A stretch of DNA of 40,354 bases, from NCBI GenBank assembly GCA_021850705.1, contig JAJZKU010000007.1:1-40354 (forward strand), given 5' to 3'. A program made the position numbers and the translations under genes. How positions within the stretch are numbered: the first letter of the stretch is position 1; every line of letters starts with the position of its first letter. The notes beneath the pieces were generated by a model. That model had not been told where the DNA came from. It ran no database searches and saw only the letters and a program-made list of their open reading frames with translations. The DNA comes from Microcaldota archaeon (GTDB lineage Archaea; Micrarchaeota; Micrarchaeia; Micrarchaeales; CABMGC01). Below are positions 35,929 through 38,803 of the stretch, in pieces.

Positions 35929-36003
35929 GCTCCGATCGTCTAGTCCGGTCAAGGACGCAGGCCTCTCACGCCTGTAACCCGGGTTCAAATCCCGGCCGGA
36001 GCA
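35929..36003 (+). tRNA. tRNA-Glu (anticodon CUC)
   Basis: A 75-nt cloverleaf including discriminator A. The acceptor strands are GCTCCGA and CCGGAGC, with one mismatch at the base of the stem (A7-C66). The anticodon stem CAGGC/GCCTG encloses CTCTCAC, giving anticodon CTC for GAG glutamate codons. The T arm is CCGGG-TTCAAAT-CCCGG. No CCA and no intron are present. It is immediately upstream of the small-membrane-protein repeat array. Confidence 0.95.
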
Positions 36004-36038
36004 CTTTTGTCAGAACAAGGAAGAAAGATAAGAATGAA

Positions 36039-36224
36039 TTATCGCTGCTTTTTCTGCTTGGATTTCTGTTGTTCTTGGCGCTCCAGATCCTTCATTATGG
36101 AACGGTACCACCAGCGCAAACCAAGGTAAGACCCAATCCCAAAAAACGCCGAACCCAGAATCACAATCAGTAGTCCAATCCATGGAAAACTCATTATATC
36201 AAATACAAACTCGTCCAAGGTCAT
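36039..36224 (-). CDS. Array protein A1, one-helix membrane protein with basic tail
   Basis: A 61-aa protein, the most downstream of the five array genes. The N-terminus is acidic (MTLDEFVFDI), one hydrophobic helix spans about 13-36 (FPWIGLLIVILGSAFFGIG), then comes LRWWYRSIMKDL and a Gln/Lys tail ending KQKKQR. The last two codons (QR) are not in the other copies. With positive charge at the C-terminus, the tail should be cytoplasmic. The ATG is the only start after the conserved 53-nt spacer; longer open frames that run back through the spacer into the previous gene are artefacts of the repeat. Function unknown. Confidence 0.75.
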   Translation of the reverse strand: MTLDEFVFDIMSFPWIGLLIVILGSAFFGIGSYLGLRWWYRSIMKDLERQEQQKSKQKKQR

Positions 36225-36277
36225 TTTTAAGCTTTGTTGGGAAGTCGACACTTGGAATAGTATAGGATAGGCCACTA
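36225..36277 (-). repeat. 53-nt array spacer (copy 1)
   Basis: Lies between the stop of B2 and the start of A1. Read on the minus strand it ends GCTTAAAA directly before the ATG and contains CCTATCCTATACTATTCC about 30-45 bases upstream, a possible promoter. It carries the GTCGAC variant. It differs from the other spacers by one or two bases at most. Confidence 0.85.
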
Positions 36278-36529
36278 TCACTTTTTCTGCTTGGGTTTCT
36301 GTTGCTGTTGGCGTTGCAAATCCTTCATTATGGAACGGTACCACCAGCGCAGTCCATACGCAGACCCAACACAACTCGGTACAAACACTAGCAGGAAGAC
36401 AGGAAATAGTACCATTATTGCAGGGCCATTCAAGAGATATGACACTAACGTCACTAGGACAGCAAGTACAAGCGACACAATCAGTACCAAGTACAGGAAC
36501 TTCATCAGATATAAATACCGCATTTTCAT
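36278..36529 (-). CDS. Array protein B2, two-helix membrane protein with basic tail
   Basis: An 83-aa protein. Two hydrophobic helices at about 8-33 (FLYLVLIVSLVLAVLV) and 36-57 (IMVLFPVFLLVFVPSCV) are separated by a tight NGP turn. From GSAYGLRWWYRSIMKDL onward it matches the type A proteins, and it ends QQQQKPKQKK. The N-terminus is short and basic (MKMRYLY). A second ATG two codons in is possible. All arginine codons are CGN. Function unknown. Confidence 0.78.
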   Translation of the reverse strand: MKMRYLYLMKFLYLVLIVSLVLAVLVTLVSYLLNGPAIMVLFPVFLLVFVPSCVGSAYGLRWWYRSIMKDLQRQQQQKPKQKK

Positions 36530-36582
36530 TTTTAAGCTTTGTTGGGAAGTTGACACTTGGAATAGTATAGGATAGGCCACTA
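36530..36582 (-). repeat. 53-nt array spacer (copy 2)
   Basis: Between the stop of A3 and the start of B2; same length and nearly the same sequence as the other three, with the GTTGAC variant. Confidence 0.85.
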
Positions 36583-36762
36583 TCACTTTTTCTGCTTGGA
36601 TTTCTGCTGCTGTCGGTGCTCTAAATCCTTCAGTATGGAACGGTACCACCAGCGCAAACCAAGGTAAGACCCTATCACGCCAACAGTCAAACAAGCAACC
36701 ACAATCAATAGTCCAATCCATGGAAAACTCATTATATCAGATACGATCTCATCCAAAGTCAT
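36583..36762 (-). CDS. Array protein A3, one-helix membrane protein with basic tail
   Basis: A 59-aa member of type A (MTLDEIVSDI, helix FPWIGLLIVVACLTVGVIG, then GLRWWYRSILKDLEHR and the tail QQQKSKQKK). Its last 20 residues are the same as those of B4 next to it rather than those of A1, so the 3' ends seem to be exchanged between neighbours of different type. Arginine codons are CGC, CGT and CGA. Confidence 0.76.
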   Translation of the reverse strand: MTLDEIVSDIMSFPWIGLLIVVACLTVGVIGSYLGLRWWYRSILKDLEHRQQQKSKQKK

Positions 36763-36815
36763 TTTTAAGCTTTGTTGGGAAGTTGACACTTGGAATAGTA
36801 TAGGATAGGCCACTA
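36763..36815 (-). repeat. 53-nt array spacer (copy 3)
   Basis: Between the stop of B4 and the start of A3; GTTGAC variant, as in copy 2. Confidence 0.85.
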
Positions 36816-37067
36816 TCACTTTTTCTGCTTGGATTTCTGTTGCTGTCGGTGCTCTAAATCCTTCAGTATGGAACGGTACCACCAGCGCAGTCCATACGCA
36901 GACCCAACAGCGCTCAATACAAACCCTGGCAGGAAGACAGGGAATATCACTATTATCCACGGGCCATTCAAGAGATATGACGCTGACATCACTAGGACAG
37001 CAAGTACAAGCGACACAATCAGTACCAAGTACAGGAACTTCATCAGATATAAATACCGCATTTTCAT
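36816..37067 (-). CDS. Array protein B4, two-helix membrane protein with basic tail
   Basis: An 83-aa member of type B. The first 27 residues are identical to B2 (MKMRYLYLMKFLYLV onward), the middle diverges (VMSASYLLNGPWIIVIFPVF against VTLVSYLLNGPAIMVLFPVF), and the end GLRWWYRSILKDLEHR with QQQKSKQKK matches A3. Two membrane helices and a basic cytoplasmic tail are predicted. Confidence 0.78.
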   Translation of the reverse strand: MKMRYLYLMKFLYLVLIVSLVLAVLVMSASYLLNGPWIIVIFPVFLPGFVLSAVGSAYGLRWWYRSILKDLEHRQQQKSKQKK

Positions 37068-37120
37068 TTTTAAGCTTTGTTGGGAAGTCGACACTTGGAA
37101 TAGTATAGGATAGGCCACTA
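37068..37120 (-). repeat. 53-nt array spacer (copy 4)
   Basis: Between the stop of A5 and the start of B4; GTCGAC variant, as in copy 1. The sequence upstream of A5 shares only the first 24 bases of this spacer (to GTTGGCAAGTTGG) and then differs. Confidence 0.85.
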
Positions 37121-37300
37121 TCACTTTTTCTGCTTGGATTTCTGTTGCTCGTGGCGGTCTAAATCCCTCTTTATGGAACGGTACCACCAGCGCAGGCCAA
37201 AGTAAGACCATATCAAACCAGCAGTCAAACCAGCAACCACAATCAGTAGTCCAATCCATGGAAAACTCATTATATCAAATACAAACTCGTCCAAGGTCAT
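37121..37300 (-). CDS. Array protein A5, one-helix membrane protein with basic tail
   Basis: A 59-aa type A protein, the first gene of the array in the direction of transcription. It reads MTLDEFVFDI, helix FPWIGLLIVVAGLTAGLIW, then SYFGLRWWYRSIKRDLDR and HEQQKSKQKK. It is easily missed because it is under 60 codons. It contains the only AGG arginine codon of the array. Upstream, CATATATC about 35-45 bases before the ATG, read on the minus strand, could be the promoter of the whole array. Confidence 0.76.
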   Translation of the reverse strand: MTLDEFVFDIMSFPWIGLLIVVAGLTAGLIWSYFGLRWWYRSIKRDLDRHEQQKSKQKK

Positions 37301-37358
37301 TTTTAAGCTTTGTTGGCAAGTTGGCAGATATATGATACGTAGATAGTTTAGAATAAGT

Positions 37359-37613
37359 TCAGTCCTTTCTCTTCATGGCTTTTAGTTCCTTCAGTATAAC
37401 GATGGATGAAGCAATTCCGGCTATGCTTAAGCCTATCGCTGCGCCTGCAGCAATATGAAGCAACTGCTTTTCTGGCACATCTGCAGTATTTATCCCAGAG
37501 AAGCGTATCCCTGCCAGCCCTGCACCTAAAATAGAGCTCGTTGCCGTGAATTTGATCCCTTCGTTTATCAGGTACTTTTTAGGGCCATCTTGTCTTTCTC
37601 TTTTGAAGTGCAT
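37359..37613 (-). CDS. Small two-helix membrane protein, divergent paralogue a
   Basis: An 84-aa protein of unknown family. A basic N-terminus (MHFKRERQDGPKKYL) is followed by two Gly/Ala-rich hydrophobic helices (SSILGAGLAGI; LLHIAAGAAIGLSIAGIASSIVIL) and a basic end (KELKAMKRKD). It resembles the protein encoded at 37756 on the other strand: both have (K/R)-x-L-x-x-E-x-x-KF-x-A, GA-x-x-AGI, and end in KELK plus lysines. A TATA-like CAATATTTAATAATC lies about 30-44 bp upstream. Confidence 0.66.
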   Translation of the reverse strand: MHFKRERQDGPKKYLINEGIKFTATSSILGAGLAGIRFSGINTADVPEKQLLHIAAGAAIGLSIAGIASSIVILKELKAMKRKD

Positions 37614-37755
37614 GATAAACGAAGAACTAATATGAGTATTATGATTATTAAATATTGTTTTTTACAGGAGGAACTCAATACGATGTGTGCCGTATAAAAC
37701 TGTGATTTGTAGTTATCTTTAAAAATCATAAATTTTATTAGTGACATGTGAAGAG
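37614..37755. promoter_or_regulatory. Divergent promoter region between the two related small membrane-protein genes
   Basis: Minus strand: CAATATTTAATAATC (37643-37657) for the gene ending at 37613. Plus strand: CTTTAAAAAT (37717-37726), about 30 bp before the ATG at 37756. The 142-bp gap holds no other gene that I can support. Confidence 0.45.
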
Positions 37756-37995
37756 ATGGAGATTTCAAAAAAACTGAAAGATAAATACGCCGAGAACAGG
37801 CATCTCGTACCTGAGGTGCGTAAGTTCGCTGCGTCAGGAGCTTTCGTAGGAGCTTCTGTAGCAGGTATTGGAGGGGTTGCTGCAGGTATGCACGGAGTAG
37901 GTGTTGGAGAGATTACAGCGTATGTAGGATCTTCTGCTTTGATCGGCGCTGTTGGATTAGGGATAATGGCTTTCAAGGAATTGAAGAGAAAGTAA
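37756..37995 (+). CDS. Small two-helix membrane protein, divergent paralogue b
   Basis: A 79-aa protein related to the one at 37359. A charged N-terminus (MEISKKLKDKYAENRHLVPEVRKF) precedes two Gly/Ala-rich helices (GAFVGASVAGIGGVAAG; AYVGSSALIGAVGLGIMAF) and the end KELKRK. The small-residue pattern suggests tight helix packing or oligomers. GTGA four bases before the ATG at 37756 supports that start; a GTG at 37741 would add five residues. Function unknown. Confidence 0.66.
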   Translation: MEISKKLKDKYAENRHLVPEVRKFAASGAFVGASVAGIGGVAAGMHGVGVGEITAYVGSSALIGAVGLGIMAFKELKRK

Positions 37996-38377
37996 TAGAC
38001 TGGAATAGCATAAAGCAAGTATATTGCGCGATCTGTTGACGCATTTTGCATTTTTATTAGGCATCCGCAGGTATGGCCGGAAGGATAGGAAGTGTTAAAT
38101 ATCTAGCAGTGCATATAGTAGTGAAAGAATTTCTGGTACAGATAGGTCATCTTATCCTGAAAAGATTAAGGTAAACATGGCGGCAATCTAAATATATAGA
38201 ATTACTTTTTGAGATTTTAGCCGTTTTGCAGATTTTATAACAATCGGTCATTTTGCCAGGAGTTCTTTTGACATTCAAAGTATGCAGGGTTTTGAAAAGA
38301 TATAAAAACCTTGAGTTATACATACACTTACAGAATTTTTATACAAAGCACAGCGATGGCTTTATACAGGTCTATTT
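37996..38377. other. Apparently gene-free 382-bp interval
   Basis: No open frame of convincing length or composition is seen on either strand. The last 80 bp hold likely promoter elements for the uL30 gene: AAGATATAAAAACC near 38300 and ATTTTTATACAAAG near 38335-38348, the latter about 30-40 bp before the ATG. The remaining 300 bp are AT-rich with short GC patches (for example CATCCGCAGGTATGGCCGG near 38065) and could hold a small RNA, but I see no fold I would defend. Confidence 0.5.
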
Positions 38378-38803
38378 ATGAAGACGCATCTTGAGAACAA
38401 GCTAATTGCCATAGTAAGAGTTAGAGGAACCTATGGAGTAAGGCATGATATAAAGGAGACCATGAAGAGGATGAACCTTAACAGGGTCAACAGCATGGTA
38501 CTGCTTTATGGCAATAAGGCCAATATAGGCATGATCAACAAATGCAGCGACTTCGTGACTTACGGAGAGATAGATAATGAGACATTGGAGCTCGTCGCAA
38601 AGAGAAAGGAGATTAAGGTTGAAAAAACGGACATTGATAACGTCTCGACAGGGAAGAAGAGCCCTAAGGAGGTTATCCCTATGCCAATAAGGATGCATCC
38701 TCCAAGAAAGGGCTACAGGGGCATAAAACAGAGCTACAAGGCAGGAGGAGACCTTGGATACAGAGGCAAGGAGATAAACTCACTGATAAAGAGAATGGCA
38801 TAA
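38378..38803 (+). CDS. Large-subunit ribosomal protein uL30 (L30/L7e)
   Basis: A 141-aa archaeal-length uL30. The N-terminal core IAIVRVRGTYGVRHDIKETM and the RMNLNRVNSMVLL strand-helix unit are diagnostic, and the C-terminal extension (MHPPRKGYRGIKQSYKAGGDLGYRG) is the archaeal/eukaryotic L7e feature. The ATG follows a TATA-like box by about 30-40 bp with no obvious ribosome-binding sequence, so the transcript may be nearly leaderless. Ten bases separate it from uL15, the usual archaeal order at the end of the spc-type ribosomal operon. Confidence 0.94.
   Translation: MKTHLENKLIAIVRVRGTYGVRHDIKETMKRMNLNRVNSMVLLYGNKANIGMINKCSDFVTYGEIDNETLELVAKRKEIKVEKTDIDNVSTGKKSPKEVIPMPIRMHPPRKGYRGIKQSYKAGGDLGYRGKEINSLIKRMA

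Follow-up and report, generated by a model that had tools for sequence, protein, structure and literature searches.

Alternating genes for predicted one- and two-helix membrane proteins with a common basic tail form a tandem array in a Micrarchaeota genome

Organization of the array

Five short genes in the order A1-B1-A2-B2-A3 were found on the minus strand, from position 37300 to position 36039 of the window, by which the whole analysed stretch of 40,354 nucleotides is meant. The A-B-A-B-A array was confirmed to be real: coordinates, alternation of the two gene types, a 538-bp period and four gaps of 53 nt, as described in the first-pass annotation, were all exact upon re-measurement. The first ATGs of A1, B1, A2, B2 and A3 are located at 37300, 37067, 36762, 36529 and 36224 and the genes end at 37121, 36816, 36583, 36278 and 36039, respectively. 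First ATGs of like type (37300, 36762 and 36224 for A, 37067 and 36529 for B) are exactly 538 bp apart, with exactly 53 nt between a stop codon and the following first ATG in all four cases. A3 is longer than the other A genes by two codons at the 3′ end, beyond which the minus strand is rich in T.

The copies had also been described as having almost no base differences. This is correct for the four internal spacers, which differ from each other by 0–1 nt, but not for the two full units (50 of 538 positions differ, 90.7% identity) or for the genes. Pairs of A genes differ at 23–31 of 180 positions (83–87% identity) and the B pair at 25 of 252 (90% identity). These differences cluster in the membrane segment and in portions of the tail.

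Open frames of 152–193 codons cross the spacers in 36039–37300 and continue in the frame of the gene that follows. The frame that overlaps B encodes a Cys-rich sequence and is open as well in the B-type gene of a second species, Candidatus Micrarchaeota YP3.bin49 (here G005). These frames were rejected as genes and treated as by-products, since differences between the two species are most frequent at the third codon positions of the A/B frame.

Promoter-like elements and probable start codons

The family-specific, BRE/TATA-like element CCRACAAAGCTTWWAWA overlaps each ATG that was proposed as a start in the first-pass annotation. The 17-base BRE/TATA-like element CCAACAAAGCTTAAAAA has as its terminal base the A of the first ATG in five of five array genes, and is located at 37300–37316 for A1, 37067–37083 for B1, 36762–36778 for A2, 36529–36545 for B2 and 36224–36240 for A3 (minus strand). 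From its first base to a downstream ATG, the distance is 46 nt for the three A genes (ATGs at 37270, 36732 and 36194) and for the A-type gene of G005, and 40 nt for the two B genes (37043 and 36505) and the B-type gene of G005. Element and subtype-specific distances are kept across species, while the surrounding spacer is not.

Scanning the sequence of the array genome (G000; 647 kb in 24 contigs, estimated to be 79% complete) yielded five exact matches, each preceding one of the five array genes. Three further matches appeared when up to two mismatches were allowed, and downstream of the nearest of these (C6:44543, one mismatch) no family gene was found. In G005 the element was matched only twice, each time just upstream of a family gene, at unrelated loci.

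TTTAWA words in G000 peak at 30–44 nt before the ATG in 103 genes. In the array, TTAAAA lies 36 nt (A) or 30 nt (B) from the downstream ATGs and 6 nt from the upstream ATG. The published archaeal consensus places the BRE at −36 to −32 and the TATA box at −30 to −23 (PMC6640164); with this spacing, transcription would start approximately at the start of B and some 6–8 nt before the start of A. In G005, stop codons close the upstream frames and thereby exclude the upstream ATG as a start: in the A-type gene (L022) the frame that begins at the element-overlapping ATG is just five codons long, and in the B-type gene (L020) the frame is closed four codons before its ATG.

The starts first annotated, falling inside the promoter-like element, fit less well than the downstream ATGs, which are probably the true ones, the upstream ATGs overlapping the TATA-like part. 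The downstream ATGs preserve the 538-bp period. Because they fit the element spacing, the proteins are most likely 49, 75, 49, 75 and 51 aa long. With these starts, A1 spans 37121–37270 (49 aa, instead of 59 aa in the frame 37121–37300), B1 36816–37043 (75 aa, instead of 83 aa in 36816–37067), A2 36583–36732 (49 aa; formerly 36583–36762), B2 36278–36505 (75 aa; formerly 36278–36529) and A3 36039–36194 (51 aa, instead of 61 aa in 36039–36224), all on the minus strand. Each array gene would have its own promoter. An ATG overlapping a TATA box can mislead start annotation wherever leaders are short or absent.

The encoded proteins

Hydropathy analysis indicated a single helix in A and two helices in B. 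Both continue into a common tail with a net charge of +5 or +6, in agreement with the first description of one-helix and two-helix membrane proteins with the same basic tail. The C-terminal tail is predicted to be cytosolic (C-in) by the positive-inside rule. A and B share the motif GxxRWWxxSIxxDLxxRxxQ in this segment, continued by a Lys/Gln-rich tail. The tail (GS.Y..RWW..SI..DL..R..Q plus Lys/Gln) is conserved between the genomes and the helices are not. Exactly 26 residues precede RWW in A and in the A-type protein of G005, and 52 and 53 residues in B and the B-type protein. All five array copies are open in frame, as are the G005 genes up to the contig ends. The predicted structure of B, built on a shallow alignment, is one long helix and is uninformative (pTM 0.35).

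In line with the first-pass annotation, to which no described family with this layout was known, neither A nor B had a significant match in Pfam, PADLOC, PHROGs, NCBIfam or PDB sequences. PHROGs yielded weak matches only (E above 0.01), and LapA_dom (PF06305) matched A1 weakly, with an E value of 0.0063 and 16.8 bits against a gathering score of 28.

Mosaic structure of the copies

The first 62 nt of the outermost A genes, A1 and A3, are the same, and the two have a 79-nt exact stretch in common, after which 18 of the next 44 nt differ, within the membrane segment. At the 3′ end, A2 differs by 1 nt from B1 and by 9 nt from A1, and the 3′ regions of A2 and B1 contain an exact match of 81 nt; between the 3′ ends of B1 and B2 there are 7 differences. 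Sites at which the A copies differ group together by pattern, forming 10 runs over 26 core sites (permutation p ∼0.001). The array copies are mosaics. Since the pairing of 3′ ends differs from that of 5′ ends and the sites are clustered by pattern, duplication was probably followed by exchange between copies, A with B included. Of the origins first considered, recent duplication or recombination, duplication with recombination is borne out; simple recent duplication by itself does not account for the mosaic pattern.

In the four within-array pairs dN was below dS each time, at few sites, with a dN/dS of about 0.4–0.7 on very few sites; substitutions within the array are about equally distributed over the codon positions. 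Constraint at the protein level is weakly shown by these within-array comparisons.

A variable locus beside tRNA-Glu(CTC)

The neighbours of the array are RfcL, tRNA-Glu, two 84-aa genes and rpl30. The tRNA-Glu(CTC) gene is located at 35929–36004 on the plus strand and the variable locus starts just past its 3′ end. In a close relative (G001), with an RfcL 97% identical and flanks that align at 88–91%, the array-bearing segment of 1,349 bp (36010–37358) is replaced by 13 nt. Between the array and rpl30 lie two divergent 84-aa genes encoding glycine/alanine-rich, hydrophobic proteins (37359–37613, minus strand, and 37741–37995), both conserved beside the near-empty site in G001; the gene at 37359–37613 belongs to the backbone of the locus, outside the array.

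From tRNA-Glu(CTC) to rpl30 (35929–38378; L066, L067, L068, L069, L071, L072), the content differs in each of six genomes, which makes this stretch a variable insertion locus across the genus. By reading of the translations, G003 has an HD-type hydrolase gene at this locus and G005 a phosphoribosyltransferase-like gene with small membrane genes; G004 contains, immediately adjoining the tRNA-Glu 3′ end, an element of about 4.2 kb (L067:1362–5518) with a transposase-like gene and inverted ends of 155 nt that are 95% complementary. The locus comprises about 16 kb in G002 (L072:1100–16600), where glycosyltransferase-like and HAD-like genes, large repeat-rich surface-type proteins and a ParA-like ATPase were recognised in the same way.

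A tRNA-integrated mobile element was considered for the array segment, and its position by tRNA-Glu and the near-empty site in G001 do fit. No integrase was recognised in the translations of the window and no repeat of the tRNA 3′ end was found within 36010–37800. Gain of the array in G000 appears simpler than loss elsewhere, because G001 has 13 nt at the site and four other congeners have other sequence between tRNA-Glu and rpl30.

Distribution of the family

Homologues of A and B, for which a search in DPANN genomes and viruses had been suggested, were found in a second Micrarchaeota species and in none of the viral sets. A profile search of 79 genomes of the taxonomic family recovered the small-protein family in G000 and in its congener G005 only, and a pattern-based scan of 84,980 species matched three G005 contigs only. 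Two of these three matches are overlapping contig ends with variants of one gene: the contigs of L020:1–420 and L021:1–330 terminate in one and the same family gene, which has a different first helix in each. Their differences lie mostly around the first helix and the hairpin, as if the contigs were broken by strain variation in this gene.

The one A-type and one B-type gene of G005 are on different contigs, in unrelated neighbourhoods. These genes are intact, so that homologues are not limited to the decayed fragments that the first-pass annotation had allowed for. The A-type gene is placed between a VirB6/TrbL-like gene, named by reading the sequence, and a convergent gene; no family gene was present at this site in the other congeners whose contigs reach it. 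The two subtypes occur together in each of the two genomes that have the family, and neither is present in the genus's four other genomes, in a very small sample of incomplete genomes. Because identical or nearly identical lengths before RWW and the same element distances recur in G005, the one-helix type A (49–51 aa) and the two-helix type B (75 aa) are probably subtypes older than the array.

One weak further match (E 4.6e-7) came from a search covering 164 genomes of the order and 301 of the phylum. It is a 47-aa protein with a single helix, RWW and a basic tail, encoded without the element at L073:1498–1641 (minus strand) in another family of the order, next to a HerA-like ATPase gene, and may be a distant member or a chance likeness. 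Weak matches in other genomes of the taxonomic family (E 0.01–0.1) looked like chance likeness of membrane segments and were dropped. There was no match among 2.9 million viral contigs or 50,697 phage records, and no family match was found in plasmids.

Origin and possible function

The explanation that we favour as a whole, and hold to be probable, is that small membrane proteins of a lineage-restricted family, divided into two subtypes, are encoded by amplified promoter-gene cassettes. The part concerning anatomy, promoters and recombination is very likely correct. Each gene would be a self-contained cassette of about 230–305 bp, in which the gene is preceded by its own BRE/TATA-like element and by a leader that is very short or lacking; these cassettes would have been amplified into A-B-A-B-A in the variable locus at the 3′ end of tRNA-Glu(CTC). 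Recombination between copies, also of A with B, would keep spacers and portions of the tail uniform while the membrane segments diverge. Both proteins may insert with a cytosolic tail, come together via their helices and have an accessory role at the membrane, of a mobile-element, defence or host-interaction type.

The nearest working model would be a holin-like pair in which one protein has two helices and the other has one, with an LDR-like toxin array as a speculative second. A membrane-active, holin- or pore-like role is itself tentative and rather doubtful. The alternation had been taken to suggest a hetero-oligomer; since A and B are separated in G005, on different contigs, adjacency is not required and alternation need not mean a complex. 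Joint action of the two may be suggested by the co-occurrence of the subtypes in two genomes, its sole support and a very small sample. The boldest version, a long shot, would be an archaeal membrane-permeabilising system with B as two-helix regulator and A as one-helix effector, in which copy number and mosaic exchange tune or diversify the pair, possibly with antisense RNA from the symmetric TATA element. If this is true, the pair would constitute, in a DPANN archaeon, a new module of small proteins that serves in conflict, defence or host interaction.

An unlikely but conceivable alternative is neutral tandem duplication of an unconstrained small gene in a hypervariable locus, the copies being kept until they decay and the alternation being a functionless by-product of one A-B duplication. 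Restriction of the family to two species, the variability of the locus and the near-equal substitution across codon positions in the array agree with this. It accounts poorly for five copies and G005 genes that are all open in frame, for the conserved tail, for dN below dS in four of four pairs, and for an element that is kept across species with its two distances in a spacer that is not.

Less probable still, with a slim chance, is a type I toxin-like array in which each unit consists of a membrane-damaging peptide and a restraining antisense RNA. The model is the E. coli LDR, a large repeat in three tandem copies, each with a gene for a 35-aa peptide and an antisense RNA (PMC4147584). The TATA-like element in the spacer is nearly symmetric and could fire both ways, so that the gene before it would be covered at its 3′ end by antisense RNA. 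Size, the single helix, the C-in basic tail and the repeated units agree with LDR, and bidirectional archaeal TATA boxes have been described, but the authors who describe them consider the RNAs from bidirectional transcription to be non-functional (PMC6640164). Moreover, an Rfam search found no RNA family match, and no antisense RNA, at the array, and the elements of G005 precede single genes that follow unrelated genes, with no family gene as antisense target.

Finally, an assembly artefact, in which at least two strain variants of one or two genes were joined end to end, is very unlikely: a genome in 24 contigs that is 79% complete, and two G005 contigs ending in strain variants of one family gene, would allow it, but the longest exact repeat inside the array is 100 nt and every copy has private differences, which speaks against a collapsed or looped assembly. 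The array also has intact flanks on either side that match G001, and the alternating copies are two distinct subtypes.

Tandem genes for small membrane proteins and variable loci beside tRNA genes are both known kinds. What appears to be undescribed, as far as our searches reach, is a DPANN archaeon in which two subtypes with one tail alternate, exchange segments and have a putative promoter in each cassette, and no description of an alternating A/B array was found in the open-access literature. In archaeal genomes, small membrane proteins are easily overlooked, and knowledge of them in the DPANN group is scant. The A/B family is tractable, with two defined subtypes, copies exchanging segments within one genome, a second species in which they are dispersed and a close relative without the array, and its specific promoter-like element predicts further members and their correct starts.

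Comparison with known systems

LapA_dom (PF06305) resembles A in having a helix followed by a charged cytosolic helix, but the score of A1, 16.8, is well below the cut-off of 28. To our knowledge, archaea have no lipopolysaccharide assembly. Among anti-phage defence systems, no PADLOC model matched A or B.

Both A and B have the predicted build of holins, which are small, contain between one and three helices and carry a basic, charged C-terminus. Among the neighbours of the array there was no endolysin gene and no viral or proviral lysis cassette, and no significant sequence match to a holin family was obtained in Pfam or PHROGs. The closest likeness is to LysF1a and LysF1b of F1 cluster mycobacteriophages, whose genes are neighbours: LysF1a, of 88 aa and with two helices (N-in C-in), matches the predicted topology of B, and LysF1b, with a single helix (N-out C-in), matches that of A (PMC13056207). 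Unlike these, the array is without endolysin, lysis cassette or phage genes, and A and B have the same tail sequence.

The LDR or Ldr-Rdl loci of E. coli are also tandem copies of a long repeat, three in number, each encoding a small membrane peptide whose C-terminus is proposed to be cytosolic (PMC4147584, PMC7472228). They are bacterial, with one peptide type and an antisense RNA per unit, whereas the array alternates two types; the Fst/Ldr-type build, a small hydrophobic C-in peptide with one helix, applies in its predicted orientation to A only, with its 49–51 aa and tail charge of +5, B having two helices. Because no lysis cassette accompanies the array and an antisense RNA of the LDR type is only hypothetical here, the terms holin-like and LDR-like claim no membership. 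Both systems may be seen as functional analogues of the array, the likeness being one of size and topology only.
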